The translations under genes were made by a program, and so were the position numbers. Source: Amanita rubescens (lineage: Eukaryota; Basidiomycota; Agaricomycetes; Agaricales; Amanitaceae). Taken from it: a DNA stretch of 64,000 bases. Under the pieces are notes generated by a model that was not told where the DNA came from, searched no databases, and saw only the letters and a program-made list of their open reading frames with translations. The DNA lies in NCBI GenBank assembly GCA_015039365.1, contig WION01000110.1, forward strand, positions 90,135 through 154,134, read 5' to 3'. Shown here piece after piece: positions 1 through 54,859 of this stretch. How positions within the stretch are numbered: position 1 is the stretch's first letter; the number at the start of each line of letters is the position of its first letter.

Positions 1-989
1 TACAACCGATCCCTAGTCTCTTAGGAGAAATCCCTACCTTCACAGGAAAGCGATCTCAAGCACAGGATTTCTTAGATCGAATGGAGCTATTCCTAGATCT
101 CAATCCAGGTCGCATCAACACAGATAGACTTAAAATCGGACTGACGTTATCTATGATAACCGACAAAGCTGAAAACTGGAGACGCAATCAAAACAACGAT
201 CTTAATGATGCAGCAAAGACGGAGATAACATGGAACGACTGGACAGGATTTAAAACCAGATTCCTCAACAATTGGCAAGAAATAGATTCACCCGGAAACG
301 CATACACAGAATTAGTACAACTACAGAAACGCAAAGACAAGAAAGGAAAACGAATCTCAATCCCAAAATACGTTGGTTTATTCAAAGAACTAATAAAGAA
401 AGCTGGAATTACAGGCAGTGCCGCCACCCATATGTTCGGACAAGGACTCGACGCCAACACGTACAGAGCAGTCGTAATGAGAGACCCTAAAACCTTGGAC
501 GAATGGTATGAAGGAGCACTCAGAGCATACAACGCCGAAACACGTATTGGCATTCTAGCAACCAACAGAGGAGGAACATCCTCACACAAACCCCCTCGAA
601 ACGAATGGGATATGGATCTCGATGCAATAATTCTTGGCGCGTTATCAAAGGATGAACGAACCCGACATATCCGAGATGGACTCTGTTTCATATGTCATAA
701 ACCGGACCATATGTCAGGACAATGCCCCATGAGGAAGGATAAAGGATCTTACAAAGGGAAGAAGAAGTTTAATGGAAAGAAAGGAAAGAAATTCGCACAC
801 GGTCGTCATATTCGAGCAACCGAAAGGGATGACGACGGCAGTAACTATGAAAACGTCGAAGAGTCTAGCCAGCATGAAGAAGAAGAAGAAGAAGACACTA
901 GCGACAGAACGATACGCGCTATGTTAAAGAAACTCTCTCCAGATCAACGAATCAACCTCCTTATCAACGCGGATAAACCGGATTTTTGA
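1..989 (+). CDS. gag: Retrotransposon Gag polyprotein, partial at 5' edge
   Basis: The frame is open from the first bases of the window (no stop before the ATG at 81), so the true start is probably outside. The N-terminal part has the helical retrotransposon-gag pattern. A CCHC zinc knuckle (CFIC-HKPD-H-MSGQ-C, spacing CX2CX4HX4C) lies about 203-216 residues after the ATG at 81 and would bind template RNA. A basic Lys/Gly stretch follows, then an acidic Glu run. The product should form the particle that packages the element RNA. It ends at a TGA (987-989) that overlaps the pol frame. Confidence 0.9.
   Translation, partial: QPIPSLLGEIPTFTGKRSQAQDFLDRMELFLDLNPGRINTDRLKIGLTLSMITDKAENWRRNQNNDLNDAAKTEITWNDWTGFKTRFLNNWQEIDSPGNAYTELVQLQKRKDKKGKRISIPKYVGLFKELIKKAGITGSAATHMFGQGLDANTYRAVVMRDPKTLDEWYEGALRAYNAETRIGILATNRGGTSSHKPPRNEWDMDLDAIILGALSKDERTRHIRDGLCFICHKPDHMSGQCPMRKDKGSYKGKKKFNGKKGKKFAHGRHIRATERDDDGSNYENVEESSQHEEEEEEDTSDRTIRAMLKKLSPDQRINLLINADKPDF
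981..989 (+). promoter_or_regulatory. Probable -1 ribosomal frameshift site between gag and pol
   Basis: The last gag codons read GAT TTT TGA. A run of five T allows the TTT codon to slip back one base onto another TTT, after which reading continues TTG ACA in the pol frame. The pol frame has no ATG here (its first codon is TTG), so frameshifting rather than a separate start is likely. This is inference from the sequence; no downstream pseudoknot was modelled. Confidence 0.5.
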
Positions 990-3900
990 CAGTGGGACAC
1001 ATGTCAGTGGATGCCTGTCCCATAACTTCGGATTCAACTCCAAAGGACGATCTTTCGATATCACCTGTAATAGTACGTTCTATTTCAAGCAATCGATTAT
1101 CTATCCCACTCGAAGTTGAAACCGAAGACAACACTGAATCAATGACTGCACTGGTCGACAGCGGTGCAGAAGGTCTATTTATTAATTCATCAATCGCGTA
1201 CAAATGGAGAAAGAAGAAACTCGCAAGACCAATCCGAGTCAAGAACGTTGACGGCACATATAACACGAATGGAGAAATTTCTGACAAGTGTTTGATCACC
1301 ATCGATATCAATGGAAAGAAGATGACCGAATGGTTCTTGGTCACTTCGCTTGGCGATCAAAACTTGATACTGGGGCTTCCGTGGCTCGAGAAGCATGACC
1401 CAATCATAAGCTGGAGGAATAAGACTCTGGAGTTCCGTAACTCCAAAGAAGACGAATGGAAGGCATCAATACGGAGCATCTTGCATCGACTCGATGAAGA
1501 AGCAATGCCTAAATGGGAAGAAGATGTCGTAATTCGGTATTTGTTGTCACACAAAGGACCAGAAGAGAAGAGTCTACGTTGGAAACTACCATTTGAAGAT
1601 ATAAAAAGATGGACTGAAGAAGATTATGACGAGATCACGATTAATCGCTATTCACCAGCTCAACAAATGGAACATAAATACAACACCGATCAGAAGGAAA
1701 TCACGCTACCTCCTGAGTATCTCGAATGGAAAGAGATATTTGAAAAACAAGCGTCAGAACGATTCCCAGACCGCAGATCATGGGATCACGCAATTGAACT
1801 TCGCGAAGATTTTATACCAAAGAAAGGGAAGATCTACCCAATATCACCATTACAACAAAATATGCTTGATGAATGGATCAAAGAACAATTAACTAAAGGA
1901 TATATACGACCATCCAAATCTCCGCAGGCAGCGCCATTCTTTTATGTTGAAAAGAAGGATAGCAAAACACTCAGACCCTGCCAAGACTACCGATACTTGA
2001 ACGAACACACGAAACCAAACTCTTACCCCTTACCACTAATATCCGATCTGATGCTACAACTTAAAGGATCACAATACTTTACAAAATTGGACATCAGATG
2101 GGGATACAACAATGTTCGAATCAAAGAAGGAGACGAATGGAAAGCCGCATTTATCACGAATAAAGGACTATTCGAACCAACAGTTATGTTCTTTGGATTA
2201 CGCAATTCACCAGCAACATTTCAAGCTATGATGGACGATTACTTCAGGGACTTCATGAACGAAGGATGGATCGCCATTTATATGGATGACATCTTGATAC
2301 ACGCGCGCAACAAACAAGAACTCGAGAAAAGAACAAAGCTAGTACTCGCAAAATTAAAAGAACACGATCTTTACCTGAAACTTGAAAAATGCAAATTTGC
2401 CGCCGAAGAAGTGGATTTCTTAGGCATGATAATCACAAAAGACACGATAAAAATGGATCCAATAAAACTCGCTGGAATCAGAGACTGGCCCCCTCCGACA
2501 ACAGTTAAACAAGTACGCTCGTTTCTTGGATTTGGAAATTACTACAGACGTTTCATATCCGGATTCGCGCACCTCGCACGACCCCTCCATGACTTAACGA
2601 AGAAAAACAAAATATGGGAATGGACACTAGAATGTAGAGTCGCCTTCGACTCATTAAAGGAAAGTTTCGTAACAGCACCAGTACTAAAGATGCCAGATGT
2701 CAATCAACCCTTCATACTCGAAACGGATGCATCTAAATGGGCTGTCGGAGCCGCCTTAATGCAGAAAGACGAAAACGGAGACTTACACCCTTGTGGATAC
2801 CTCTCACACGCACTTACGCCTACTGAACGAAACTGGCAAATCTACGACCGAGAGCTCTTTGCCATAATTTACGCCCTTGATGAATGGAAATACCTACTGC
2901 TTGGAGCAGAACACACACTCACTATTCACTGCGATCACAAGAACTTAACCTATTACCGCGCACCACAACGTCTCACAGCTAGACAAGCAAGATGGTGGAA
3001 TAATCTCTCAAGATATAATTACCAACTAATTCACGTTCCTGGAGCAAAACTAACTCAAGCGGACGCCCTATCCCGCCGACCTGATCACACCAATGGAGAA
3101 GAAGATGACGAAACAGTCACGATGCTCCCTGACTCATTATTCATTCAAGTCATCGCTGAAGATCTCCGAGATCAAGTAAAGAATGCAACTCAAACCGATG
3201 AGTTTGCTGAAACCATTAGAAGATGCTTAAAGGAGAAAGGAACAGCGCCCCTTCGCACAGCAATCACCGATTGGACCGAAGATAACGGAATCATCCTATT
3301 CAAAAATAAGGCATACGTTCCATTAGACTCCGATCTCCGCCGATCTATTATTAAAGAATACCATGAAGCACCGAGTGCAGGACACCCTGGATTCTTCAAA
3401 ACGCTTAGCCTACTAAGGGAACACTACTGGTGGCCTAGAATGACAACACTTGTCAAAAGTTTTATCGACGGATGCCTTACCTGTCAACAGATGAAACCTA
3501 ATACACACCCCACCGCCGCACCCCTAATGCCGATTAAATCCCACGCACACCGACCGTTTCAACAGATTACCATGGATTTCATCACCGATCTACCGCTTAG
3601 CGACGGTTTTGACTCTATCTTTGTCGTGGTCGACCAAGGACTTTCAAAGGGAGTAATTCTATGTCCCTGTAATAAAACTATTACATCAGCCGAAACCGCC
3701 GACCTCTACATCAAAGAAGTATTCAAGAACTTCGGATTACCAGACATTATGATATCTGACAGAGGACCGCAATTCGCAGCAAAAGTCTTCGAAGGGATAA
3801 CTAGCGCACTTCAGATCAAACACAAGATGAGCACCGCCTTTCACCCTCAAACAGATGGACAAACGGAACGCTATAACGCCGTACTCGAAGTATACCTCCG

Positions 3901-4603
3901 CATATTCTGCGCTTATGAACCAGACAAATGGAACAAGATACTTCCTATCGCACAATTCGCTCATAATTCTAGAACGCATGAAGAACTGAAACAATCACCG
4001 TTCTATCTCATGTATGGATCTAACCCCGTGGCACTACCCCAGGTTACAGAACAATCAGCTACCCCTGTAGCAGATGAACGCATCAGACTCCTGATCAAAG
4101 CAAGAGAAGAAGCTCTGGCAGCACACGACCTTGCACGCCTCAAAATGGCACAACGAACAATGAAACACTCTAAACCGTTCAAAGAAGGAGAAAAGGTTTG
4201 GCTAGATTCAAAGAACCTACGCATTCCTTATCAATCACGTAAACTCGCACCTAAACGAGAAGGACCCTTCAAGATAAAGAAAGTCTTAGGACCTGTCACC
4301 TATCAACTAGACCTACCGAAACAATGGAAGATACACAGCGTTTTCCACGCATGTCTACTGTCACCATTTAAAGAAACAGAATTCCATGGACCTAACGACA
4401 CACGTCCACCACCAGATCTGATAGAAGGATCAGAAGAATACGAAATAGAAGCTATTCTCGCACACCGAAAGATCGGACGTCAATTACAGTTTCTCGTCAA
4501 ATGGAAAGGCTATGATACAAGCGAGAACACTTGGGAACCCCAAAGGAACTTGTCAAACGCCGAGGATATCCTTGACGAATATAAGAAACGTAGGAAACTC
4601 TAA
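986..4603 (+). CDS. pol: Pol polyprotein: protease, reverse transcriptase, RNase H, integrase, chromodomain
   Basis: About 1205 codons, uninterrupted. In order: aspartic protease with the DSGA motif (ALVDSGAEG, near residue 57); reverse transcriptase with the YMDD catalytic box (IYMDDILI, near 430); RNase H (ETDASKWAVGAAL, near 580); integrase with an HHCC zinc-binding segment (CLTCQQMK), then the DD35E core (MDFITDLP, ISDRGPQF and the downstream E); and a C-terminal chromodomain (VKWKGYDTSENTWEP). The chromodomain defines the chromovirus clade and is thought to guide integration to particular chromatin. Expression probably needs the frameshift at the gag stop. Confidence 0.95.
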   Translation: MTVGHMSVDACPITSDSTPKDDLSISPVIVRSISSNRLSIPLEVETEDNTESMTALVDSGAEGLFINSSIAYKWRKKKLARPIRVKNVDGTYNTNGEISDKCLITIDINGKKMTEWFLVTSLGDQNLILGLPWLEKHDPIISWRNKTLEFRNSKEDEWKASIRSILHRLDEEAMPKWEEDVVIRYLLSHKGPEEKSLRWKLPFEDIKRWTEEDYDEITINRYSPAQQMEHKYNTDQKEITLPPEYLEWKEIFEKQASERFPDRRSWDHAIELREDFIPKKGKIYPISPLQQNMLDEWIKEQLTKGYIRPSKSPQAAPFFYVEKKDSKTLRPCQDYRYLNEHTKPNSYPLPLISDLMLQLKGSQYFTKLDIRWGYNNVRIKEGDEWKAAFITNKGLFEPTVMFFGLRNSPATFQAMMDDYFRDFMNEGWIAIYMDDILIHARNKQELEKRTKLVLAKLKEHDLYLKLEKCKFAAEEVDFLGMIITKDTIKMDPIKLAGIRDWPPPTTVKQVRSFLGFGNYYRRFISGFAHLARPLHDLTKKNKIWEWTLECRVAFDSLKESFVTAPVLKMPDVNQPFILETDASKWAVGAALMQKDENGDLHPCGYLSHALTPTERNWQIYDRELFAIIYALDEWKYLLLGAEHTLTIHCDHKNLTYYRAPQRLTARQARWWNNLSRYNYQLIHVPGAKLTQADALSRRPDHTNGEEDDETVTMLPDSLFIQVIAEDLRDQVKNATQTDEFAETIRRCLKEKGTAPLRTAITDWTEDNGIILFKNKAYVPLDSDLRRSIIKEYHEAPSAGHPGFFKTLSLLREHYWWPRMTTLVKSFIDGCLTCQQMKPNTHPTAAPLMPIKSHAHRPFQQITMDFITDLPLSDGFDSIFVVVDQGLSKGVILCPCNKTITSAETADLYIKEVFKNFGLPDIMISDRGPQFAAKVFEGITSALQIKHKMSTAFHPQTDGQTERYNAVLEVYLRIFCAYEPDKWNKILPIAQFAHNSRTHEELKQSPFYLMYGSNPVALPQVTEQSATPVADERIRLLIKAREEALAAHDLARLKMAQRTMKHSKPFKEGEKVWLDSKNLRIPYQSRKLAPKREGPFKIKKVLGPVTYQLDLPKQWKIHSVFHACLLSPFKETEFHGPNDTRPPPDLIEGSEEYEIEAILAHRKIGRQLQFLVKWKGYDTSENTWEPQRNLSNAEDILDEYKKRRKL

Positions 4604-32551: not shown

Positions 32552-35500
32552 TCACCCTGCCATAAATTGTCCATAAGTAGTCCATGACTGCAAAGTATGT
32601 ACATGCCTACCATCAATGCGAGTCACCTGGCTATAGAGTAATGTGACCAAATTTTGATGGTCAGAGCACATAAATTCAGGGGTAATCTCCCTCTTCAGCT
32701 TCTGAACATAGCCTTTTTGCTTGTATTGATCCAAGGCATCAGTGACTGATGGCAAAAATGTTTTATTGATCCAAAAGGATAGCTTGGCAATGATAATAAT
32801 TGCTTCAAAGTTTAAGCATAAATACAGTAAATGAAAAGGAATACTTTACAAACTAAGAGCTGGCAATCAGTAGGCTTTTTGCAATTGCATCAGTTGTGTA
32901 CCATATGTGAAAAAAAGAATAAAAATACCTTGATGGAAAAGTGCTTGTGCTTGTCTCCAAACAGGGAGAAAAGTTCATACTGGTTACATATGAGATAGAG
33001 TAAATCATCCAATATGCATGTCATAAGACCTACAGACTAGCATGAAGATTGGTATTAAAATCAATACCTCATGAACCTGCTTCACTCACCTGAAAATCAA
33101 GGAAAGTGATATAAGTGAGAGGAATGTTGAAGTGTGTAGTTGAAATGAAATCTTACAATCTATGATGATAATAATGTAAAGGGAAGACAATTGGAAAAGA
33201 TAGGACAACATGCTCACTTTCTGAGATGTAATGATTCATCAGACATTCATAAATTGAGGTATGCTGAGAATGCAGGTCAGAAAATTTGTGATGTCACTCA
33301 CAAGCTGTTGGTCAAAGGGAAGATGTGATGAGACTGTTTCACAAAATGTGCAATGTCACTCACTCCCTATTGGTCATGTATGAGATTGCTCATTACAAAA
33401 TCAATGTCACTCACTTCCTGTTGGTCATAAGAAAAGATGTGATGAGATTGCCACAAAACATGCAGTCTCACTCACTTCCTGTTGTCCATAGGAGAAGATG
33501 TGATGAGATTTTACAAAATTTGCAATGTCACTCACAAGCTGTTTGTTATAGGGAAAGATGTGATAGGCTGCCTTTCACAAAATGTGCAATTGCTCACTTG
33601 CTGTTGGTACTGGGTTAAGATGTGTTAATGTTGAAATGTGCAATGTCACTCACTTCCTGTTGGTGATAGATAAGGATATGAAGGGGTTGTCTTTCACAAA
33701 ATGTGCAATATCACTCACAAACTAGGAAAAGATATGATGAGACTGGCTTTCACAAAATATGTAATTCCTCACTTGCTGATTGGAAAAGATGCAATGAGAC
33801 TGCCTTCCACAAAATCTGCAATGTCACTCACAAACTGATTGTGATATAAAATGTAATGAGATTGCCTTTCACAGAATGTGCAACCCCACTCACTCCCTTG
33901 ATTGGAAAAGATGTATCATGTGGACTTTCTTTGTGTAATGTCACTCACTCCCTGTTGGTGATCAGGAAAGATGTGATGAGACCATCTTAATGTGCAATGT
34001 CACTGACAAACTGTTGGTGGTGCCAAAAGATGTGATGTGGCTGCCTGTCACAAAATCTGCAATATCACTCACAGACTGTTGGCAATAGGAAAAGATGTGA
34101 TGAGACTGCCTTTCACAAAGTGTCCAATGACACTCACTCCCTGTTGGTGATAGGAAAAGATATGGTGAGACTATCTTTCACCAAATGTGCAATGTCACTG
34201 ACAAACTGTTGGTGATAGGAAAAGATGTGATGAGGCTGCCTTTCACAAAAGCTGCAATGTCACTCACTCGCTGTTGGTGAGAAGAAAAAATGTGATGAGA
34301 CTGCCTTTCATAAAATGTGCAACTTGTCACTCACTCCCTGTTGGCAATAGGAGAGGATATGATGAGAATGCCTTCCTCAAAAGGTGTAATGTTACTCACT
34401 TCCTGTTGGTGATTGGAAAGGATACATATGATGACAAAATGTGCAACATCACTCACAAGCTGTTGCTCAAAGGAAAAGATATGATGAGACTACCCTTTAC
34501 AAAAATTTAAATGTGCAATGTCACTCACTCCCTATTGGTGATGGGAAAAGATGTGATGAGACTGCCTTCCACAAAATCTGACATGTCACTCACAAGCTGT
34601 TGGTGATAGGAAAAGATGTGATAAGATTGCCTTTCACAAAATGTGCAATGTTGCTCACTCCCTGTTGGTGATAGGAAATGATCTGACAATACTGCCTTCC
34701 ACAAATTTGCAATGTCACTCACTCCCTGTTGGTGATAGGAAAACATATGATGAGACTGCCTATCACAAAATCTGCAATGTCACTTGCTTGCTGTTTGTCA
34801 AATAGAAAAGATATGGTGATCAGAATAGACTGTCTTTCACAAATTTGCAATGTCCCTCACTTGCTGTTCATCATATGAAAGATGTAATTAGTAAGACTGC
34901 CTTTCACCAAATATTCAATCTGACTCACTCCCTGTTGATCATAGGAAAAGGTGTGATGACACTGCCTTCCAACAAAATTCTCTAATGGTGCTTACATCCT
35001 GTCAAAAAAATACATACATAGAGCAGCTTTTCAGAAATATTTGCAATGTTACTCACATACTATAAGCCATGGGTTACAATCTTTTGAACCACTAAAGCAG
35101 TTGACATGCTGCTAACCTTCTACATTTATTTGAACAGATGTGATGAGACTGTTATTTCCAAAAATTGCAATATTACTCACAATCTGTAGTATTTTCTTGT
35201 GTCCAAATTGTCTTGCAGAAGAGTGGCCAGCATCACTCACTTCCTTTCAGAATGGAATTAGCACATTGAGTTGGGAGGAAAAAAACATTATCACTGACTC
35301 TCTTTTACCATAGTATTTTATATAATGAGCCCACATCTCAAAAAAGTATCACATACATACATCCTATTTGTTTTGAATTGTGTGAAGAGGCTTTGAAAAT
35401 GAGAAATATTACTGTCTGTTATTTTTGGACAAGATGTAATGTTTATAAGCAAACAGAAAGGAAATGTTGCTTACTTCCTGTTATTAATCCAATGAGGTCT

Positions 35501-37450
35501 TTTGAGACTTTAGACTACCATATGTCACCAACTTTCTATTGTCCATGGAGTTGTGTCTGATACACTTCAACCTCAAAGTTGCTTACTTTCTTTAAGCAGG
35601 TCAGATGTGGTGTGAGGCTGTGTTTTATCACCCACTCCCTGTCCATGAGAGACTGGAGTGACAAGTCTGCTTACAATGATAGATTGACTCACTTTCTATT
35701 GGTCATGTAAATTGTAATGCATCATGGAAAATCAAATTGAGTGATGGCACTCACTTCCTGTAGATTATGGGACAAGACTGCTGATCACAAAGAAAGCATT
35801 GCTCACAAACTGTTGTCATGAGACATTACTATATCAGATCTATGCTAGTTTAATATCACTTACCCACTGATATCAATTTCATCAGATCCTGTCACCAAGA
35901 ATATCATGTGACAACTAACCTGTGCTTCACTCAATTGTTTATTAGTCATCTGAAATATTACTACTCCTGTTTTCATGTCAAGGCATTGGAGTGTCACTTA
36001 CCTCCTGTTAAATCTTTTGCAAGTATCTATTGTCATATGAAGGCCACCTACCTCCCTGGACACCTATTGCCATTAATGTTTCCTAAGCTGATGTGCAGTT
36101 TGACAAAAATATGTATGTACATACCCAGAAATGTGGAAATTTTGAAAAAACTATGAGAACAACATCACCCCATGCCAAAGGTTCATGTTTCAGAACATGT
36201 CTGAACAATATTAATGCTAATAAGGGACATTGTGCATTTGTCCTCACTGAAGTGCAGATCTAACACAAAGGTCAAGATTATTCATCTGTGTTGAAACAAA
36301 TAGCTGATGTATGCAGTCATCATCTATTGCATCAGCAGTTTTCAGGGTTAATTCAGGACAATTCTTCTCTGGTAAATCCATGTCTATCAAAAAATATTAT
36401 TCCCATGTTCAGAAAGAAATCTACATTGTGCCCACCTTCTAATAGCACATATGCCCTGGGAGGATATTTGGCATTCAAAACTTTAGGAAGATAAACTTTC
36501 TGAAAAGTGACTTCAGCAATTTCCCTGGCCCTCCCCCACTTATCTTCATCCTTTCTATCAATCAAGTTGACATATTCACTGTCTATTTGACCATCAAACT
36601 TAGTGAATATTACCAATAAAGGAACTGTAAAGGAAATATTTACTAGTCAGTACTGTTAGATTTTGCAGCACCTTGGCCAATGGAAAGGAGGTAACAATAG
36701 TCAAGTGTAAACAATCTCTCCAAACCAACAAGATGTGGCATGTGTTCATTAGGGCTTACCTCTGCCTGTCCCTTTATTGAAGAATTCAAGTTCTGCAGGC
36801 AGAATTGGGCGAGGGCTGTCCATGGGTATACAGTACCTACAGAAAGCCAAATCAGACAGTACTGTATTGAAAGGGATGAAGCAAGATACCAGATTGCATG
36901 CAGCTGATTCTTCAGCTCAGTTTCTGCACACCTCTTTTCAATGAACTTCCAAGCAATCTCCAGTTCCTCAGTTGATCCAGATTCAAAACCCTGAGAGTCA
37001 TGGAAGATAAAGTTACTTCCAGGGTATGTAATTTGATGCTCAATATCATGCTGGCCTCTCTGTTATGTGTCATTGCATGTGAATGGGCACATCCATATCA
37101 TTAGCTGACCTCAAGTGATGGCATCAAATGATTCTCAGACTGTTCAAGCTGATTACCTGCAAGAAACTCAACAGTTAGTAAGGAAGCACAAAACTCAGAC
37201 CAACTCACCATCCTTGTCATATATGATGGGCTCTGTTGCCTTTGCTACACCACAGACCTTCTCAAGGATGGTTGTTTTGCCTGCATTTGCCCTCCCAATA
37301 ACAAGGATGCGAAAGTGTGGGCAAAGATAATATTCCCTGAGCATTTGAACACGTGTCTCATCTGGATTTGATATGATATTTGTCAGTCAAGGACTAGCAA
37401 TACACATAAATTAGCATACTCAAAAGAGGTACACCAGTTGCGGCAGCCAT
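32552..37450 (-). CDS. P-loop G-domain protein with about 47 single-codon micro-exons (proposed 60-exon model)
   Basis: ATG 37450. Ordinary exons are 37420-37450, 37209-37361, 37110-37156, 36890-37059, 36760-36836, 36436-36624, 36248-36383, 36125-36200 and 36052-36082. They encode a G domain: G1 GRANAGKTT, G3 DSQG in FIFHDSQGFESG, G4 TKFD in LVIFTKFDGQIDSEY, then CPELTLKTADAIDDD and MNNLDLCVRSALQ. After a 3-nt exon (36002-36004) and a 47-nt exon (35920-35966) come 45 consecutive 3-nt phase-0 exons from 35864 down to 33157. Next are a 13-nt exon (33077-33089), 32929-33029, another 3-nt exon (32850-32852) and 32552-32782. The total is 1443 nt in frame (480 aa). Weak points: the GTTCAT donor at 33071-33076, the AAG acceptor before 32782, and the lack of RNA evidence. 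The family is a GTPase group expanded in mushrooms; its cellular role is unknown. Confidence 0.7.
33077..35866 (-). repeat. Tandem array of intron-plus-triplet units
   Basis: On the minus strand each unit reads acceptor (usually CAACAG), 3 nt, donor (usually GTGAGT), then about 50-65 bp to the next acceptor. Units between 33296 and 34930 are similar in sequence (core gacattgcacattttgtg...aggcagtctcatcacatc) with a spacing of mostly 62+3. Units from 34996 to 35866 have lost most sequence similarity but keep the sites and the 3-nt exon. Seen from the plus strand it looks like a minisatellite with repeated cactcac...ctgttgg. Confidence 0.9.
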
Positions 37451-39611: not shown

Positions 39612-41056
39612 ATGTTTAGCCAAGCCGAAGAGAAATCTGACGGTCGTACTCCCTCTCAGGGTGAGAGCAGCGTTCATTTTGACTTTCAGCAATCGAAAAT
39701 CAAATCGCCACTTAATGCTCAAACAGCAGCTTTCTTCAATGAAAGGAACGGTATCGACCTTTTACCGGACGACGTGCTTAGAGAAACCTTTCTTTCATGT
39801 GATGGCGAGCGCTTGAAAATACGGTCTCTATCAGAGAGTGATCGTAAGTCGATACTTGAACTTGTCTTACTCTATAATACCGATGATTCTCATATACAAA
39901 AGCGGAGAAGGCACCACAAAACCCGCCTTTACCACTTGTTTTGTCGAGCATATGTTCATCATGGCGTCGTGTTGCCTTATCCACTCCCCAGTTATGGAGC
40001 AGCATAGGCATCGCGTCGTTCACTGAACACTCAACACTTGTTGCCGCGGAATGGCTCTCCCGGGCAAGAGGACTTCCTGTCTCCATCTACATCAAGCGCA
40101 TCTGTTATGATGATGAACATGTCTATGCTAAACTTACAATCTTCCTTTCGGCGTATCATATCAGATCTCTCAATGTCTTTATAACCGGTCCTCTGCTCGA
40201 ACATGATCGCTTCATGTCAGAATTACCTGTAGAAAGCGTCGCATCTCTCGAAAGGCTTACCCTCACCGCGAGCCTTGTCGGTTCCATACCCGTACGCCTA
40301 AACAGCGCACGTTATCCACGTCTGCAATATCTATCCCTCTTAGGCCATTACGACAGCGACTCTGCGATCACCCTCCCATGGACATCGCTGCGTAAGCTTG
40401 ACCTTACGAGGTTTAGCCTCCAATTCACTCAATGCCTTTACATTCTTCGACAATGCACATCCCTCCATTCTGCTTCACTCTTCGTAGTTCCCGCTTTCTT
40501 CCCAACAGGGCATGAACAGGTCTACCTCCCAAATCTTTCTTGTCTTTCGTTTCGTTTCACCTCACCCACTGTTCACATGGGGACATATTTCGATGTGCTC
40601 GCAGTCCCAAGCTTGACATATCTTGCAATTGATCAACCCGCCACGAAATCATATGAGGATCCCCCCGAGATCATCTGGTCGTCGTCAAGCTACGCTCGTA
40701 TGATCGAAGGATCTCACTATCCTCCTATTCACCAACTTATCATCCCACGCACAAAAGATCCAGTCGACCTTGGTGACCTTCTACGCCATACCCCGACTCT
40801 GACACGACTTACTTTGCTCTATGGGGCGCTTGACGAAGATACTTCAAAACAATTGGCTGAAGGACGGCTGGGGCCAAACCTGCAGCATCTAGACATAGAG
40901 GAAATAAGAGGAGTGACTCGGGAACAGTTTTTGGATATTATTTCAATGCGGGTGGAAGATTCAAAGCAGATTGAGGAGGCACCAAGGGGAACGATTACGT
41001 CTATCAAGTTTGTTTGCAGTAATCCTAGGGACCTGACCTTGGATGAAGTATCTTAG
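39612..41056 (+). CDS. F-box protein, divergent member of the local cluster
   Basis: Exons 39612-39843 and 39903-41056 (59-bp intron with GTAAGT donor) give 461 aa. The F-box is split by the intron: IDLLPDDVLRETFLSC before it, NPPLPLVLSSICSSWRRVALSTPQLW after it. LRR-like repeats follow (LERLTLTASL, YPRLQYLSLLG, LRKLDLTRF, LQHLDIEEIRG). Residues in the second half align in pattern with the copies at 46.9-54.9 kb, but the sequence is much more diverged. I chose ATG 39612 because the paralogues also have short N-termini; an in-frame upstream ATG at 39432 exists. Expected role: SCF substrate adaptor. Confidence 0.82.
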
Positions 41057-46939: not shown

Positions 46940-48457
46940 ATGAGCGACTACTCCCCAACTGCATTCTTGTCGAGTACGCGGCTACCAGATGATATTGTTC
47001 AGGAGATATTCATCTGGTATGTCAATGATGACCCCTTCGTGGATGTGCCGTTCCTTCCCATAGAAGAAGAAAGGTGCTCCCCGTTCTCTCATTGGGATTT
47101 GGATGTGCCATTCCTTCCCATGGAAGAAGAAAGCTGCTCCTCGTCCTCTCATCGGGATTCGGACGATAGCGAGGATGACGATGACTCGGACTACTCCGTC
47201 CGATCGTCTGACGAAATCTCGTCATTTGAAGAAATACCATTCATTAATCATCTTCCTCTGCCGTTCGTCGTATCACACGTATGCTCAGCGTGGCGCCGCG
47301 TCGCTTTGTCCACCCCCCGATTATGGAGCAACGTGTGCATCAGAACGTTTGGCCCGTGCTCGAAGCGGCTCGCTACAGAATGGCTCCTAAAAGCAGGAAG
47401 TTGTCCTCTCTTTATCACCATTTTCAATCTGGTTTCTGACTCTCACTTCGATATCTATGATGAACTTAGGGAATTCCTATCAGCTTACAATATCAAAAGC
47501 CTTGAGCTCCCTCTACTATCTCAAACGTGTCCACTGCTCCCTCTTCTTTTAGCCGAACTCCCCGATGAAAGAATCATACACCTTGAATCGCTTTCGCTCA
47601 CGGATCTGGAATACGGTCGCAATGAGTTTTTATTTCTTGACGATGCCCGCTACCCATTCCTCCGAGAGTTGCAGCTCATAGGACGGTTTGTCGGTGACAT
47701 GATAATTTTCCCCTGGATATCACTGCGCCATCTCGACGCCTCAACCGCTCTTCTGCCGATGATGCAGTGTTTGCATATACTGCGGGACTCTGTCTCTTTA
47801 GAGGTCTGCTATCTTGGTGTTTCGTCTGATACGGGATCGGAATCATCTGTGGGAGATCTTAATCTCCCGACTCTGAACGAGTTAACCTTATCTTTCAACT
47901 TTGACGCAGACGTTGGCGACTTTATCAAGCGGCTGACTACTCCGAACCTAAAGGTCTTGGCCTTTGACAGAGGTGGATCCTCAGATGAAATACCATTGCG
48001 CTGGTCGGATCTGGAATACTCAAACATGATGCACAGATCAAACGGACCACTCAACCATCTCGCAATCAGGCAAACCAACGAAGTCAATGCTCACAGCGTC
48101 CTCCAAAGCAGTCCAATGCTAGTGGAGGTTAACCTTCATCGAGCCAGATTTTGGCAGAAGACTCTAGATGATCTCGCAACGGGGCGATTGGCGCCACTGT
48201 TGCAACATTTCTGCGTCGACGAGATCAGCGGTGTCGATAATTCAGCAATTTCAAAAATGATAGAGCGGCGAACTCAGAATTCTGTATGCATCGGAGGTGC
48301 GGGGCATCGTTTGATGCCGTTTTCATCCGTCATGAGCGGTCGCATAATGGATGCAAACTTTGATTTTGTTTATCCCGCGCGACAGCATATGTCATATTAT
48401 CACGAGCCTGATATGCTCGGGATCTGTGATTGCATTTCCTGCATTTTGGGCTCCTGA
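46940..48457 (+). CDS. F-box protein, intact cluster copy
   Basis: Single exon, 505 aa. The F-box begins at residue about 14 (RLPDDIVQEIFIWYVNDDPF) and resumes after an acidic insert with LPLPFVVSHVCSAWRRVALSTPRLW. The insert carries an internal duplication of about 20 residues (DVPFLPIEEERCSP / DVPFLPMEEESCSS) not present in the two sister copies. Leu-rich repeat-like segments follow to residue about 420, then a short tail ending in CDCISCILGS. It is the only one of the three close paralogues with an unbroken frame, so probably the functional one. Confidence 0.85.
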   Translation: MSDYSPTAFLSSTRLPDDIVQEIFIWYVNDDPFVDVPFLPIEEERCSPFSHWDLDVPFLPMEEESCSSSSHRDSDDSEDDDDSDYSVRSSDEISSFEEIPFINHLPLPFVVSHVCSAWRRVALSTPRLWSNVCIRTFGPCSKRLATEWLLKAGSCPLFITIFNLVSDSHFDIYDELREFLSAYNIKSLELPLLSQTCPLLPLLLAELPDERIIHLESLSLTDLEYGRNEFLFLDDARYPFLRELQLIGRFVGDMIIFPWISLRHLDASTALLPMMQCLHILRDSVSLEVCYLGVSSDTGSESSVGDLNLPTLNELTLSFNFDADVGDFIKRLTTPNLKVLAFDRGGSSDEIPLRWSDLEYSNMMHRSNGPLNHLAIRQTNEVNAHSVLQSSPMLVEVNLHRARFWQKTLDDLATGRLAPLLQHFCVDEISGVDNSAISKMIERRTQNSVCIGGAGHRLMPFSSVMSGRIMDANFDFVYPARQHMSYYHEPDMLGICDCISCILGS

Positions 48458-49419: not shown

Positions 49420-50166
49420 CGAGAAGAGAAGAGGGGGAACTTCGAGAGGTCAGAGACTACCGGTCATTCTGTTCGTTTCTCCCTACTGACCGCCGGTAGT
49501 TCCGAAAGGTGTCAGGCTGGGCTTGCTATCAATACCCTCGTTCAGCAACGCGGTCCCCAATGGCACATACATAATACCCCTGCGACCGCTTCTGCAAAGT
49601 AACATCAAATACGCCCACAATCACCACGATATTCGCTTCTTGCTCCCCATTCTCTCAATATCCCACATAAACTGAATCCCCCCGGAATGCCCCCGACGCA
49701 AGTGCAGTTATACCATCTCTACCACATTGTTGGCACCGAGAGGTCTTCTCACCCGCTTTCCAATCTCCTTTGTCCCATCCTCAATTTCCACAGCTCACTG
49801 GCATGTTGATTCCGGCTTAAATACAATGAGTTTTGTCCTATAAACGTGCCGCTCCTTACGAGACTGAGCTCAACACTTTGTTAAATACGACCGAACTCGC
49901 ACCCTTGACAACACTGATCGACAATCCGGTTCTATATCGTATGTCAGCGTGCTCGCCATATAATGATGGCCGTAAATTTTTAAGTCGGAGTCTGATCAGA
50001 TTGGCACAGAACCGCCATTCATCTGATTCTAAATTCAACCTGAACCTCTCCGACATACAGCACCTAGTCACAAACATATTCCCAGAACCGGGTAGCTGTG
50101 ATCATTGGACTCAGCTGATGAAAACGTGAATTAGAAAGCCAAAACGACTCTGCATTGGAGCTCAAC
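49420..50166 (+). repeat. Duplicated spacer and 5' flank of the F-box unit
   Basis: 49420-49800 matches 52360-53000 (agaagagg..gaacttcgaga, tactgaccgcc, cttctgc.aagtaacatcaaatacgc). 49830-50166 matches 53040-53376, including a nearly identical 60 bp before the ATG. This shows that whole units of about 3 kb, not just genes, were duplicated in tandem. Confidence 0.8.
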
Positions 50167-51646
50167 ATGAGCGAGGCGGACTCGGACCACTCCCCAACTG
50201 CATTCCCGTCGATTACGCTGCTACCAGATGATATTATTCAGGAGATATTCATCTGGTATGTCAATGATGACCCCTTCGTGGATGTGCCATTCCATCCGTC
50301 CATGGAAGAAGAAAAGTACACCCCGTCCCCATATTGGGATTCGGATAGCGAGGATGACGATGAATACTCCGACTCCCCTGACGAACTTGAAATCTCGTCA
50401 CACGAAGAACAACCATTCATTAATCTTCCTCTGCCGTTCGTCATATCACGCGTATGCTCAGCGTGGCGCCGCGTCGCTTCGTCCACCCCCCGGTTATGGA
50501 GCAACGTTTGTATCGAAACGTTTGACCCGTGCTCAAAGCGACTCGCTGCAGAATGGCTTCTAAAAGCAGGAAGTTATCCTGTCTCTATTACCATTTACGA
50601 TCTGGCTTCTGACCCTCACTTCAATATCTACGATGAACTTGAGGAATTCCTATCAGCTTACAATATCAAAAGCCTCGAGCTCCCTCTACTATCTCAAACG
50701 TGTCCAATTCTCCCCCTTCTTTTAGCCGAACTCCCCGAGGAAAGAATCACACATCTTGAATCGCTTTCGCTCACGGACCTGGAACCCGGGCGCCAGGAGC
50801 TTTTACTTCTTAACAATGCCCGTTACCCATGCCTCCGAGAGTTGCAGCTTATAGGGCAGTTCGTCGGTGACATGAGAATTTTCCCCTGGAAATCACTCCG
50901 CCGTCTCGACGCCTCAACCGCTCTTCTGCCGATGATGCAGTGTTTGCATATACTGCGGGAATCTGTCTCTTTAGAGGTCTGCTTTCTTGGTATTTCGTCT
51001 GATACGGGATCGGAATCGACTGTGGGACATCTTAATCTCCCGACTCTGCACGAGTTAACCTTATCTTTCGACTTTGACGCAGACGTTGGCGAACTTTATC
51101 CGGCGGCTGACTACTCCGAACCTAAAGATCTTGACCTTTGAAAAATGTGGATTTTGGAGATTCTGGAGTGAAGTGACATTGCGCTGGTCGGATCTGGAAT
51201 ATTCACGCATGATGCAGAGATCAAACAGACCACTTATCCACCTCGCAATTCAAAGCAGCGAAGTCGATGCTCACAGCGTCCTCCAAAGCAGTCCAATGCT
51301 GGTGGAAGCCAACTTCCATCGAGCCAAATTTCGGGAGGAGACTCTAGATGATCTTGCAACGGGGCGATTGGCGCCACTGTTGCAACATTTCTGCGTCGAC
51401 AACATCAGTGGCGTCGACGATTCTGCATTTTCAGAAATGATAGAGCGGCGGACTCAAAATTCTGTAAGCATCGGAGGTACGGGGCATCGTTTGATGCCGT
51501 TTTCATCCGTCATGGGATTGGGCGGTCCCAGAATGAATGCAAACTTTGATATTGTTTATCCCCCGCGACAGCCTACTATAGCATATTTTCACGAGACGAA
51601 CATATCCCGGCTCTGTGGTTGCATTTCCTGCATTTCGCGCACCTGA
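50167..51646 (+). pseudogene. F-box gene copy with 1-nt insertion
   Basis: Starts MSEADSDHSPTAFPS; roughly 85-90% like the copies at 46.9 and 53.4 kb by eye. The frame breaks at about 51091, where ggcgaacttta replaces ggcgacttta of both sisters (one extra A). The remaining C-terminal part stays open in the next frame to 51646. As it stands it would give a 324-residue truncated protein lacking the last third. Confidence 0.88.
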
Positions 51647-53376: not shown

Positions 53377-54859
53377 ATGAGCGAGGCGGACTCGGACCAC
53401 TCCCCAACTGCATTCCCGTCGATTACGCTGCTACCAGATGATATTATTCAGGAGATATTCATCTGGTATGTCAATGATGACCCCTTCGTGGATGTGCCAT
53501 TCCATCCGACTATGGAGGAAGAAGAGTACACCCCGTCCCCTTATTGGGATTCTGATAGCGAGGATGACGATGACTACTCCGACTCGCCTGACGAACTTGA
53601 AATCTCGTCACACGAAGAAAAGCCATTCATTAATCTTCCTCATGCCGTTCGTCATATCACGCGTGTGCTCAGCGTGGCAACGCGTCGCTTTGTCCACCCC
53701 CCGGTTATGGAGCAACGTTTGTATCGAAACGTTTGACCCGTGCTCGAAGCGACTCGCTGCAGAATGGCTTCTAAAAGCAGGAAGTTATCCTGTCTCTATT
53801 ACCATTTACGATCTGACTTCTGGCCCTCACTTCAATATCTACGATGAACTTGAGGAATTCCTATCAGCTTACACTATTAAAAGCCTCGAGCTCCCTCTAC
53901 TATCTCAAACGTGTCCAATTCTCCCTCTTCTTTTAGCCGAACTCCCCGATGAAAGAATCACACATCTTGAATCGCTTTCGCTCACAGACCTGGAATCCGG
54001 GCGCCAGGAGTTTTTACTTCTTAACAATGCCCGCTACCCATGCCTCCGAGAGTTGCAGCTCATAGGGCAGTTCGTCGGTCACATAATAATTTTCCCCTGG
54101 AGAACACTCCGCCGTCTCGACGCCTCAACCGCTCCTCTGCCGATGATGCAGTGTTTGCATATACTGCGGGAATCTGTCTCTTTAGAGGTCTGCTTTCTTG
54201 GTATTTTGTCTGACACGGGATCAGAACCGACTATGGGACATCTTAATCTCCCGACTCTGCACGAGTTAACCTTATCTTTCGACTTTGACGCAGACGTTGG
54301 CGACTTTATCCGGCGGCTGACTACTCCGAACCTAAAGATCTTGACCTTTGAAAAAGGTGTATTTTGGAGATTCTGGAATCAAATGCCATTGCGCTGGTCG
54401 GATCTGGAATACTCGCGCATGATGCAGAGATCAAACAGGCCACTTATCCATCTCGCAATCAGGCGATGCAGCGAAGTCGATGCTCACAGCGTCCTCCAAA
54501 GCAGTCCAATGTTGGTGGAGGCTAACTTCCATCGGGCCAGATTTCGGGAGGAGACTCTAGATGATCTCGCAACAGGGCGATTGGCGCCACAGTTGCAACA
54601 TTTCTGTGTCGACGAGATCAGTGGCGTCGACGATTCTGCATTTTCAGAAATGATAGAGCGGCGGACTCAGAATTCTGTAAGTATCGGAGGCACGGGGCAT
54701 CGTTTGATGCCGTTTTCATCCGTCATGGGATCAGGCGGTCCCAGAATGAATGCAAACTTTGAAATCGTTTATCCCCCACGACAGCCTACTATAGCATATT
54801 TTCACGAGACGAACATATCCCGGCTCTGTGGTTGCATTTCCTGCATTTCGCGCACCTGA
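53377..54859 (+). pseudogene. F-box gene copy with 1-nt insertion in the F-box
   Basis: The closest relative is the copy at 50167. One extra A at about 53642 (cttcctcatgccg versus cttcctctgccg) shifts the frame inside the F-box. The rest, from ..MPFVISRVCSAWQRVALSTPRLW to the end (54859), is open. The break could be bypassed only by starting at the ATG at 53643, which would drop the first half of the F-box. Confidence 0.88.

Follow-up and report, generated by a model that had tools for sequence, protein, structure and literature searches.

Introner-like elements are scattered in unrelated genes, and TAL-effector repeats and fungal WD-repeat allorecognition genes consist of repeats that are almost the same except at a few hypervariable codons. 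In the portion of the literature cited here, the micro-exon genes of Schistosoma have exons of 3-81 bp, encode variable proteins and undergo alternative splicing (PMC10526429), and an aphid megacycle gene carries more than 100 microexons in about 2000 amino acids (PMC9168663). Excerpts of two further papers describe exons down to 1-3 nucleotides (nt) that are spliced in plants and in the Trichoderma Xlr2 gene (PMC8831610, PMC11121469), and the Trichoderma excerpt states that functional microexons had not previously been described in filamentous fungi (PMC11121469). Here we describe a G-domain gene of the basidiomycete Amanita rubescens, together with its paralogs, in which the exons for a variable linker appear to form an array, each exon a single codon long. 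The gene lies in a window of 64,000 nt (the whole stretch of DNA that was analyzed: assembly GCA_015039365.1, contig WION01000110.1, positions 90,135 to 154,134).

The array is located on the minus strand of the window and runs from 35866 to 33157. A script listing all AG-NNN-G(T/C) triplets found 45 successive units there, each of exactly 3 nt. The donors comprise 44 GT and one GC (the unit at 34790), the introns measure 46-81 nt with a median of 59, and none of the 45 triplets is a stop codon. Apart from the median and the place of the GC unit, these properties had been listed in a first-pass annotation and were found again, which confirms that the 45-unit observation is real. In a search for chains whose exons all have the same length, with introns of 38-95 nt allowed, length 3 scored 168.5 with 45 exons. 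The best score for any other length from 0 to 18 nt on both strands of the window was 18 (length 7, an echo within the same array), and the rest scored at most 8. The maximum among 300 dinucleotide-preserving shuffles was a score of 8, with 3 exons. The older half of the array alone scored 49.5 with 16 exons, compared with at most 7 and at most 4 in its shuffles. After the array was masked, no second chain of 3-nt exons with more than three members was found on the minus strand of the window. Tandem Repeats Finder reports the younger part of the array as a tandem repeat with a period of about 65 nt.

Related arrays are found throughout a gene family in the 75.7-Mb A. rubescens assembly, which comprises 786 contigs. 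Protein searches with single exons gave 107 genomic matches in one case and at least 150, the number scored, in each of two others, allelic and duplicate contigs included. We examined 23 loci, namely the window, 20 paralogs and two divergent paralogs. Chains of 3-nt exons are present in all 23, with raw counts of 40-88 units, and the chains for other tested exon lengths have at most three members (one or two for lengths 1, 2, 4, 5, 6 and 9 in the first 21 loci). The raw chains of 13 of the 23 loci take in two units before the opening W codon, of which the second is usually the start of a 30-nt exon; the L047 chain misses W, and the L048 chain includes eight mis-registered GCA units in a row, so that its count and its codon run there are unreliable. 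The 1360 array introns have a median length of 62 nt (5-95% range 51-71). The array exons are in phase 0, with many short exons whose lengths are divisible by three. In the young arrays L013 (C254) and L048 (C13), the units CTTC, CATT, AATT and CA would shift the frame unless they are skipped or compensated.

The opening codons of the arrays, about 15 in number, read WFEQGKKETDREIKY or variants of it, and the remainder differs between genes. Exceptions are L046, which diverges after five residues, and the divergent loci L057 and L058. A region search with the L058 protein gave nothing at E 1e-3 among 95 candidates. The window array is found at 100% identity over 2961 bases on contigs C14, C283 and C307, which are perhaps assembly duplicates. 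Family genes also occur as inverted pairs about 8-45 kb apart, as on C228 (3-8 kb, minus strand, and 51-55 kb, plus strand) and on C23, C67, C289, C73 and C737. Such pairs could recombine or invert.

The splicing of such arrays appears to be recorded in a set of JGI proteins (RNA-type proteins). Their contigs measure 0.9-1.9 kb, and their open frames pass without a break through the intron positions of family genes. P0123 is a 265-amino-acid open reading frame on a 1143-bp contig and matches the gene at C106:20929-23668 at 92-98% by piece. Its linker falls on locus L059 (C106:21380-23330) as a 15-nt exon, 25 tiny exons (22 of 3 nt and three of 6 nt) and the start of the next exon. The residues of the tiny exons are identical in 28 of 28 cases, all 22 of the 3-nt exons match, splicing uses a GC donor twice, and 17 single-codon exons stand in an uninterrupted row. 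This alignment, in which the last six residues lie past the end of L059 and are skipped, scores 166; 100 shuffled linkers average 60 and reach 88 at most. In this paralog, a run of single-codon exons has been joined in order in one open frame. The 6-nt exons are located at L059 positions 462, 642 and 764; those at 462 and 764 lie at NAGNAG-like acceptors, where P0123 uses the upstream AG and so gains one residue.

Other proteins extend this observation. P0001 and P0005 carry WFEKGKKESDREIEYDG and WFEHGKKDTDKQIVYDG immediately after the pre-array exons, and in a 120-protein database the window array matches P0001 with an E value of 2.7e-8. In the same database, the 48-residue array peptide of L058 aligns end to end with P0111 at 42% identity (E 7e-10). 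P0111 is identical over 106 amino acids to an A. rubescens protein, and P0121, whose putative array lies on C46 (C46:13130-17200), shares 97% identity over 135 amino acids with one. Judged by eye, the frame is kept across the linker in at least nine RNA-type proteins (P0024, P0026, P0027, P0052, P0111, P0121, P0123, P0128 and P0129). In P0070, the C-terminal exon follows the G domain with no array peptide between them, and an array peptide is present in none of the Amanita NCBI gene models that we read. The RNA-type evidence from paralogs supports the reading that the array is coding and translated.

The triplets themselves carry coding signals. Among chains chosen with a penalty on stop triplets, stops number 0 of 195 in young arrays against 11.1 expected, and 2 of 567 in old arrays against 40.2 expected, where the expectation is taken from base composition by position. 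The third base is A or T in 182 of the 195 young codons, compared with 1140 of 1732 codons (66%) in ordinary exons of the family. NAG is absent from the young triplets and accounts for 137 of the 1732 ordinary codons; NGT is absent from the young triplets as well, and both NAG and NGT would form competing splice sites. Conversely, CGA, GGA, CAA and GAA make up 118 of the 195 young triplets and 172 of the 1732 ordinary codons. Within the conserved block of 16 units that opens the array, comparison of 14 paralogs with the window shows 87-96% identity at codon positions and 76% in introns, and 175 of 210 residues are the same as in the window. The codon tallies for this block exclude L040, which nearly duplicates L037.

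Most arrays share a master intron. A cluster of 62-nt introns with one consensus is found in 22 of 24 loci (the 23 loci and L020), and is not found in L057 and L058. The consensus is exact in 17 of these 22 loci and deviates by 1-2 nt in five, including the window (1 nt). By comparison, divergence among the older introns in the conserved block is 1.6-23% between the nine loci compared. Exact copies of the master number 162 in eight loci and stand beside 18 different codons, so that the arrays share the near-identical introns of introner-like elements; these counts and those of star-likeness are based on 62-nt introns that depart from the master by 14 differences at most. Within the window, the introns of the first 16 units are mostly only 39-56% identical to the master, with splice sites and spacing kept. 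The first-pass annotation had noted this retention, and had described the older half as having lost nearly all similarity between units. That half is not simply a decayed copy of the younger one: the 16-unit block is conserved in paralogs, and the younger part derives from one master intron.

Codons and introns diverge very differently within the young arrays. Overall, introns there differ by 0.13-1.9% and codons by 35-66% of their bases, where introns were selected for 90% or more identity to a centre, a choice that reduces intron divergence, chiefly in the older arrays. The youngest arrays are L042 (introns 0.15%, codons 54%) and L053 (0.13% and 39%), and L048, L020, L049 and L041 show 0.4-1.6% for introns and 35-65% for codons. 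Intron divergence from the master within arrays is roughly star-like, also in older arrays such as that of the window, with d_ij/(d_i+d_j) of 0.76-1.0 (the null was not simulated). The distance between units has little effect on intron divergence in most arrays, with L052 and L055 as exceptions, and codon identity likewise has little effect, with L020, L039 and L054 as exceptions. Some older arrays share intron variants between units; L050 has 27 shared and 45 single variants. The retained units of older arrays have drifted by about 10% from the master. In the old pair L047/L054, introns differ by 12.0% (417/3463) and codons by 8.8% (18/204; p 0.18), and this lack of a codon excess implies that the codons do not keep evolving fast. 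The star-like older arrays and the near-identical young introns together suggest that arrays form in bursts and then stand still, with which the pair L047/L054 agrees.

Recent changes can be followed in close pairs. Between L049 and L014, two adjacent units are different (CGA CGA and ATC GGA), and the adjoining introns are identical. Between L049 and L013, the difference spans four adjacent units, of which one now measures 4 nt, and three L049 intron variants within this tract have returned to the master sequence. When the two comparisons are pooled, codon bases differ at 9 of 267 positions and intron bases at 6 of 4818 (p 1e-8). Nearly every codon change is nonsynonymous. Identical codons stand side by side mildly more often than expected in L042 (p 0.02) and in L048 (p 0.035 in the right register), and the other six arrays tested are not significant at lag 1. 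L042 also includes the codon-level repeat GVVGVVGVV. The idea that array pairs keep an intron-by-intron register was dropped, because near-identical young introns make the register between loci unreadable; codon comparisons between loci therefore compare the contents of arrays, and the decoupling of codons from introns was assessed within arrays.

A genome search with the master intron gave at least 410 matches, with 40 of 158 candidates scored, and the contigs among the matches listed carry family arrays. Two copies, at C650:4-65 and C88:4-65, are located at contig ends next to C-terminal exons of the family. When folded as single-stranded RNA, the master intron does no better than its shuffles (z 0.09).

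The gene model of the window gene is given in Table 1. The annotated protein, F5887DRAFT_1140763 of A. rubescens (P0003), stops at SALQ, upstream of the array. It matches the Pfam model MMR_HSR1 with 24.8 bits, above the cut-off of 21.9, as a G domain should, and P0026 and P0027 score below the cut-off of the Pfam G-domain model. An NCBIfam search gave only sub-cut-off matches, a PDB sequence search with P0026 gave no match, and an Rfam scan of the window gave none. The 45 units of the window gene itself are probably spliced as in the paralogs.

Table 1. Exons of the window gene, with positions in the window
Feature	Position	Strand	Remarks
First coding exon, MAAATGVPLL(N)	37420..37450	-	Agrees with NCBI protein P0003
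G-domain exon with P-loop GRANAGKT	37209..37361	-	
Six more ordinary G-domain exons	37156-37110, 37059-36890, 36836-36760, 36624-36436, 36383-36248, 36200-36125	-	Protein continues in P0001 and P0005
12-nt exon, VSRE	36052..36063	-	V(D/G/S)R(E/G/A) in 14/21 loci (strict pattern) and in RNA-type proteins
Single-codon exon, E	36002..36004	-	In RNA-type P0005 of a relative, not in P0001
30-nt exon, MTNKQLSEAQ	35920..35949	-	P0005 equivalent: MANKQLSEAQ
Conserved block, 16 successive 3-nt exons, W F E K G K K E T D R E I K Y D	34996..35866	-	Similar residues in paralogs and in P0001/P0005
Variable block, 27 successive 3-nt exons (units 17-43)	33302..34931	-	Introns after units 17-42 have 60-95% identity to the 62-nt master
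Final two single-codon exons, K and I	33157..33220	-	K-I ends 12/21 arrays
51-nt exon YELFSLFGDKHKHFSIK, phase 0	32929..32979	-	Homologous to ELFS.FG of P0024 and P0027
10-nt exon LLV(S), putative	32850..32859	-	Frame, and similarity to VLIS/LVVA before (I)IIAKLSFW in full-length homologs
C-terminal exon (A)IIIIAKLSFWINKTFLPSV..	32612..32802	-	3' end either 32627 or 32612

This model retains much of the first-pass annotation and corrects its borders. Of two additional single-codon exons proposed there, the upstream one (36002-36004) agrees with P0005, which has E between VGRD and MANKQLSEAQ, and is missing from P0001; the downstream one (32850-32852) is better read as the end of the 10-nt exon, on the grounds of frame, paralogs and full-length homologs. 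The exon that follows the array is entered in frame in phase 0, as had been proposed, but begins at 32979 rather than 33029; the reading LMTCILDD.. upstream of that point has stops in paralogs. Between the upstream single-codon exon and the array lies the 30-nt exon, which had been missed. In the intron after the last unit, TTTTCAG/GTGAGT at 33091-33084 sets an acceptor directly against a donor (a zero-nt exon); this is possibly a recursive splice site or a lost unit.

Elsewhere in the window, positions 81-4603 contain open frames that we take, from their motifs, to be of the Ty3/gypsy gag-pol type. Regions 39941-41056, 46940-48457, 50155-51141 and 53438-54859 presumably encode members of an F-box-like protein family (LPDDIVQEIFIWYV..). 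A 60-nt repeat is located at 47040-47163, within the region of this family.

We regard it as likely, with a probability of roughly 0.85, that the feature is an array of single-codon exons which encodes the variable linker of a fungal G-domain protein. In the paralogs, some 40-90 consecutive phase-0 exons of 3 nt are located between the G domain and the C-terminal domain, and appear to yield a linker with one residue per exon. A linker of this kind is what the first-pass annotation had proposed, and the array peptides in RNA-type proteins, the arrays in 23 of 23 loci and the strong depletion of stops support it. Its proposal that units change without breaking the frame is supported at its core, with the seemingly out-of-frame P0061 and P0127 and the 2- and 4-nt units of L048 and L013 as departures. 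Bursts of multiplication may have copied the master intron along with a codon, and the near-identical introns could then provide the homology for exchanging blocks of units within and between genes of the family. One exchange would replace one or a few codons, with the splice sites kept and the frame usually kept. An array whose introns have drifted apart would freeze, and that of the window gene would be a case of this. The short introns are probably each recognized by intron definition, which would allow the spliceosome to excise them singly. Block exchange would fit the L049 pairs well, because exchange among master introns is visible almost only in codons. The variability of the linker invites a guess that the protein acts in self/non-self or immune-type recognition.

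Several observations weigh against this reading. All RNA-type evidence comes from paralogs or relatives, and none of it is a transcript of the window gene. The origin of the JGI proteins in assembled RNA is deduced from short contigs and spliced frames and not from the record, although even a retrocopy origin would record a spliced RNA; few of these proteins are tied to single-codon exons in a gene of their own. A genomic unit K (L059 position 820) is absent from P0123, and was either skipped or not present in that individual. P0111 matches the genome at 94-99% in G-domain exons and at only 82-93% in C-terminal exons, so the exact P0111 gene was not found. By eye, P0061 and P0127 seem out of frame at the C-terminal exon, and P0011 agrees with the exons of L057 and then continues as DASETT..LYAC, genome-continuous sequence before the array, where it seems to stop in an intron. 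In array chains chosen without a stop penalty, 8 of 1227 triplets are stops, and L057 has two stop triplets. Of 219 segments in six young loci, 5 measure 2 or 4 nt, each of these in L048, and L013 adds another; these rare units, in their small numbers, hint at a process that acts on the codon site itself. The codon changes in the conserved block are 35 nonsynonymous and 1 synonymous, an excess which suggests that part of the conservation concerns the context of splice sites and not residues. Finally, plain exchange of units would homogenize codons as fast as introns, and so fails to explain the codon diversity on identical introns.

We tentatively suggest, at rather less than even odds, that the arrays form a codon-cassette system, in which the master intron is copied in bursts to make wholly new tandem arrays, different codons are joined to it at birth, and single-codon units are later exchanged across the family. 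Splicing would then turn each array into a rewritten linker of some 40-90 residues. Under a different scheme, the intron-plus-codon unit would be duplicated stepwise in tandem, and very strong diversifying selection would then act on the codons. Exact 3-nt spacing and in-frame growth would follow naturally, and the codon repeats of L042, the mild excess of adjacent identity, the intron variants shared within older arrays and the nearly exclusive nonsynonymous changes all suit this scheme. We nevertheless think it unlikely: intron divergence is roughly star-like and in most arrays is little affected by distance or codon identity, introns at 0.13-0.15% beside codons at 39-54% (L053, L042) would need a several-hundredfold acceleration, and the old pair L047/L054 shows no codon excess. 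Perhaps an introner-like element was inserted between the codons of a once continuous exon, so that the codons are simply the old exon. The presence of one master in many loci, the differing ages of the arrays and their roughly star-like divergence are consistent with such insertion. However, the young codons are unlike the ordinary exons of the family in their third bases, in their lack of NAG and in their abundance of CGA, GGA, CAA and GAA, and random insertion gives no cause for exactly 3 nt each time, which makes this origin quite improbable.

Two other explanations concern whether the array contributes mainly to protein at all. If the block were a single non-coding minisatellite intron, with the 3-nt spacing a by-product of repetition, then the 65-nt repeat in the younger part and the NCBI model ending before the array would both be expected. 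Yet the first 16 units keep splice sites and spacing with introns that have mostly diverged to 39-56% identity to the master, array peptides occur in RNA-type proteins, stops are depleted, and P0123 on L059 contradicts the idea for a paralog; we consider it extremely improbable. Alternately, the array might be chiefly a regulatory brake, in which retention of one of its introns cuts the protein short behind the G domain and transcripts are seldom spliced in full. The end of P0011 in pre-array genomic sequence and the apparent frame loss in P0061 and P0127 are of the kind that a brake would produce, but at least nine RNA-type proteins are in frame across the linker, and the residues match the arrays in both cases compared fully. 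This role is thus very unlikely to be the main one.

The reading as a linker built from single-codon exons has consequences for splicing and for gene evolution. The data indicate that the spliceosome joins 17 successive one-codon exons, and probably 40-90 in other genes of the family, which tests how exons too short for both splice-site complexes get spliced. Intron amplifications of different age within the genes of one genome make intron gain directly testable. The arrays also suggest a new route to protein variation, in which the intron is the recombining repeat and the single codon is the cargo; if the codon-cassette reading is true, this would be a dedicated generation of diversity at one-residue resolution. 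Gene predictors miss this class of exon, as seen in the Amanita NCBI models that we read and in P0070. The larger finding is a gene family with hypervariable linkers that appear to be written one codon per exon on a shared intron.

Among the matches listed from the openly licensed PMC literature on microexons, 3-nt exons and introners or intron gain, no array of single-codon exons was found, and the literature on the A. rubescens genome and on GTPase expansions gave nothing usable. The nearest systems are Schistosoma micro-exon genes, aphid bicycle/megacycle genes and introner-like elements, each of which shares one aspect with the arrays and fails or leaves open others. As far as the cited part of the source goes, Schistosoma micro-exon genes are likewise composed largely of very short exons, but have introns of up to 5 kb and encode secreted proteins, whereas here one-codon exons are separated by introns of about 62 nt and accompany a G domain (PMC10526429). 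The median array intron of 62 nt is also far from the long introns of Schistosoma-type genes. The aphid genes, in the sections cited, resemble the arrays in their long runs of microexons of one phase; their exons are larger and in phase 2, in contrast to the 3-nt, phase-0 exons described here, and those sections make no mention of a shared intron sequence comparable to the master intron (PMC9168663). The plant and Trichoderma cases, in the excerpts available, involve single microexons or two adjacent ones and not arrays (PMC8831610, PMC11121469).

Introner-like elements of fungi and Micromonas, in the cited portions of the work on them, share with the master intron the multiplication of many similar spliceosomal introns in one genome (PMC4457414, PMC3879977). 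The copies listed here differ in that they are located in arrays of one gene family, one codon apart. Intron creation by a duplicated segment that carries splice signals is alike in principle, but is a single event there, and here would have occurred dozens of times per gene and with differing codons. In TAL-effector and WD-repeat genes, the constant part of the repeat is protein, whereas in the A. rubescens arrays the constant part is the intron, which is removed.

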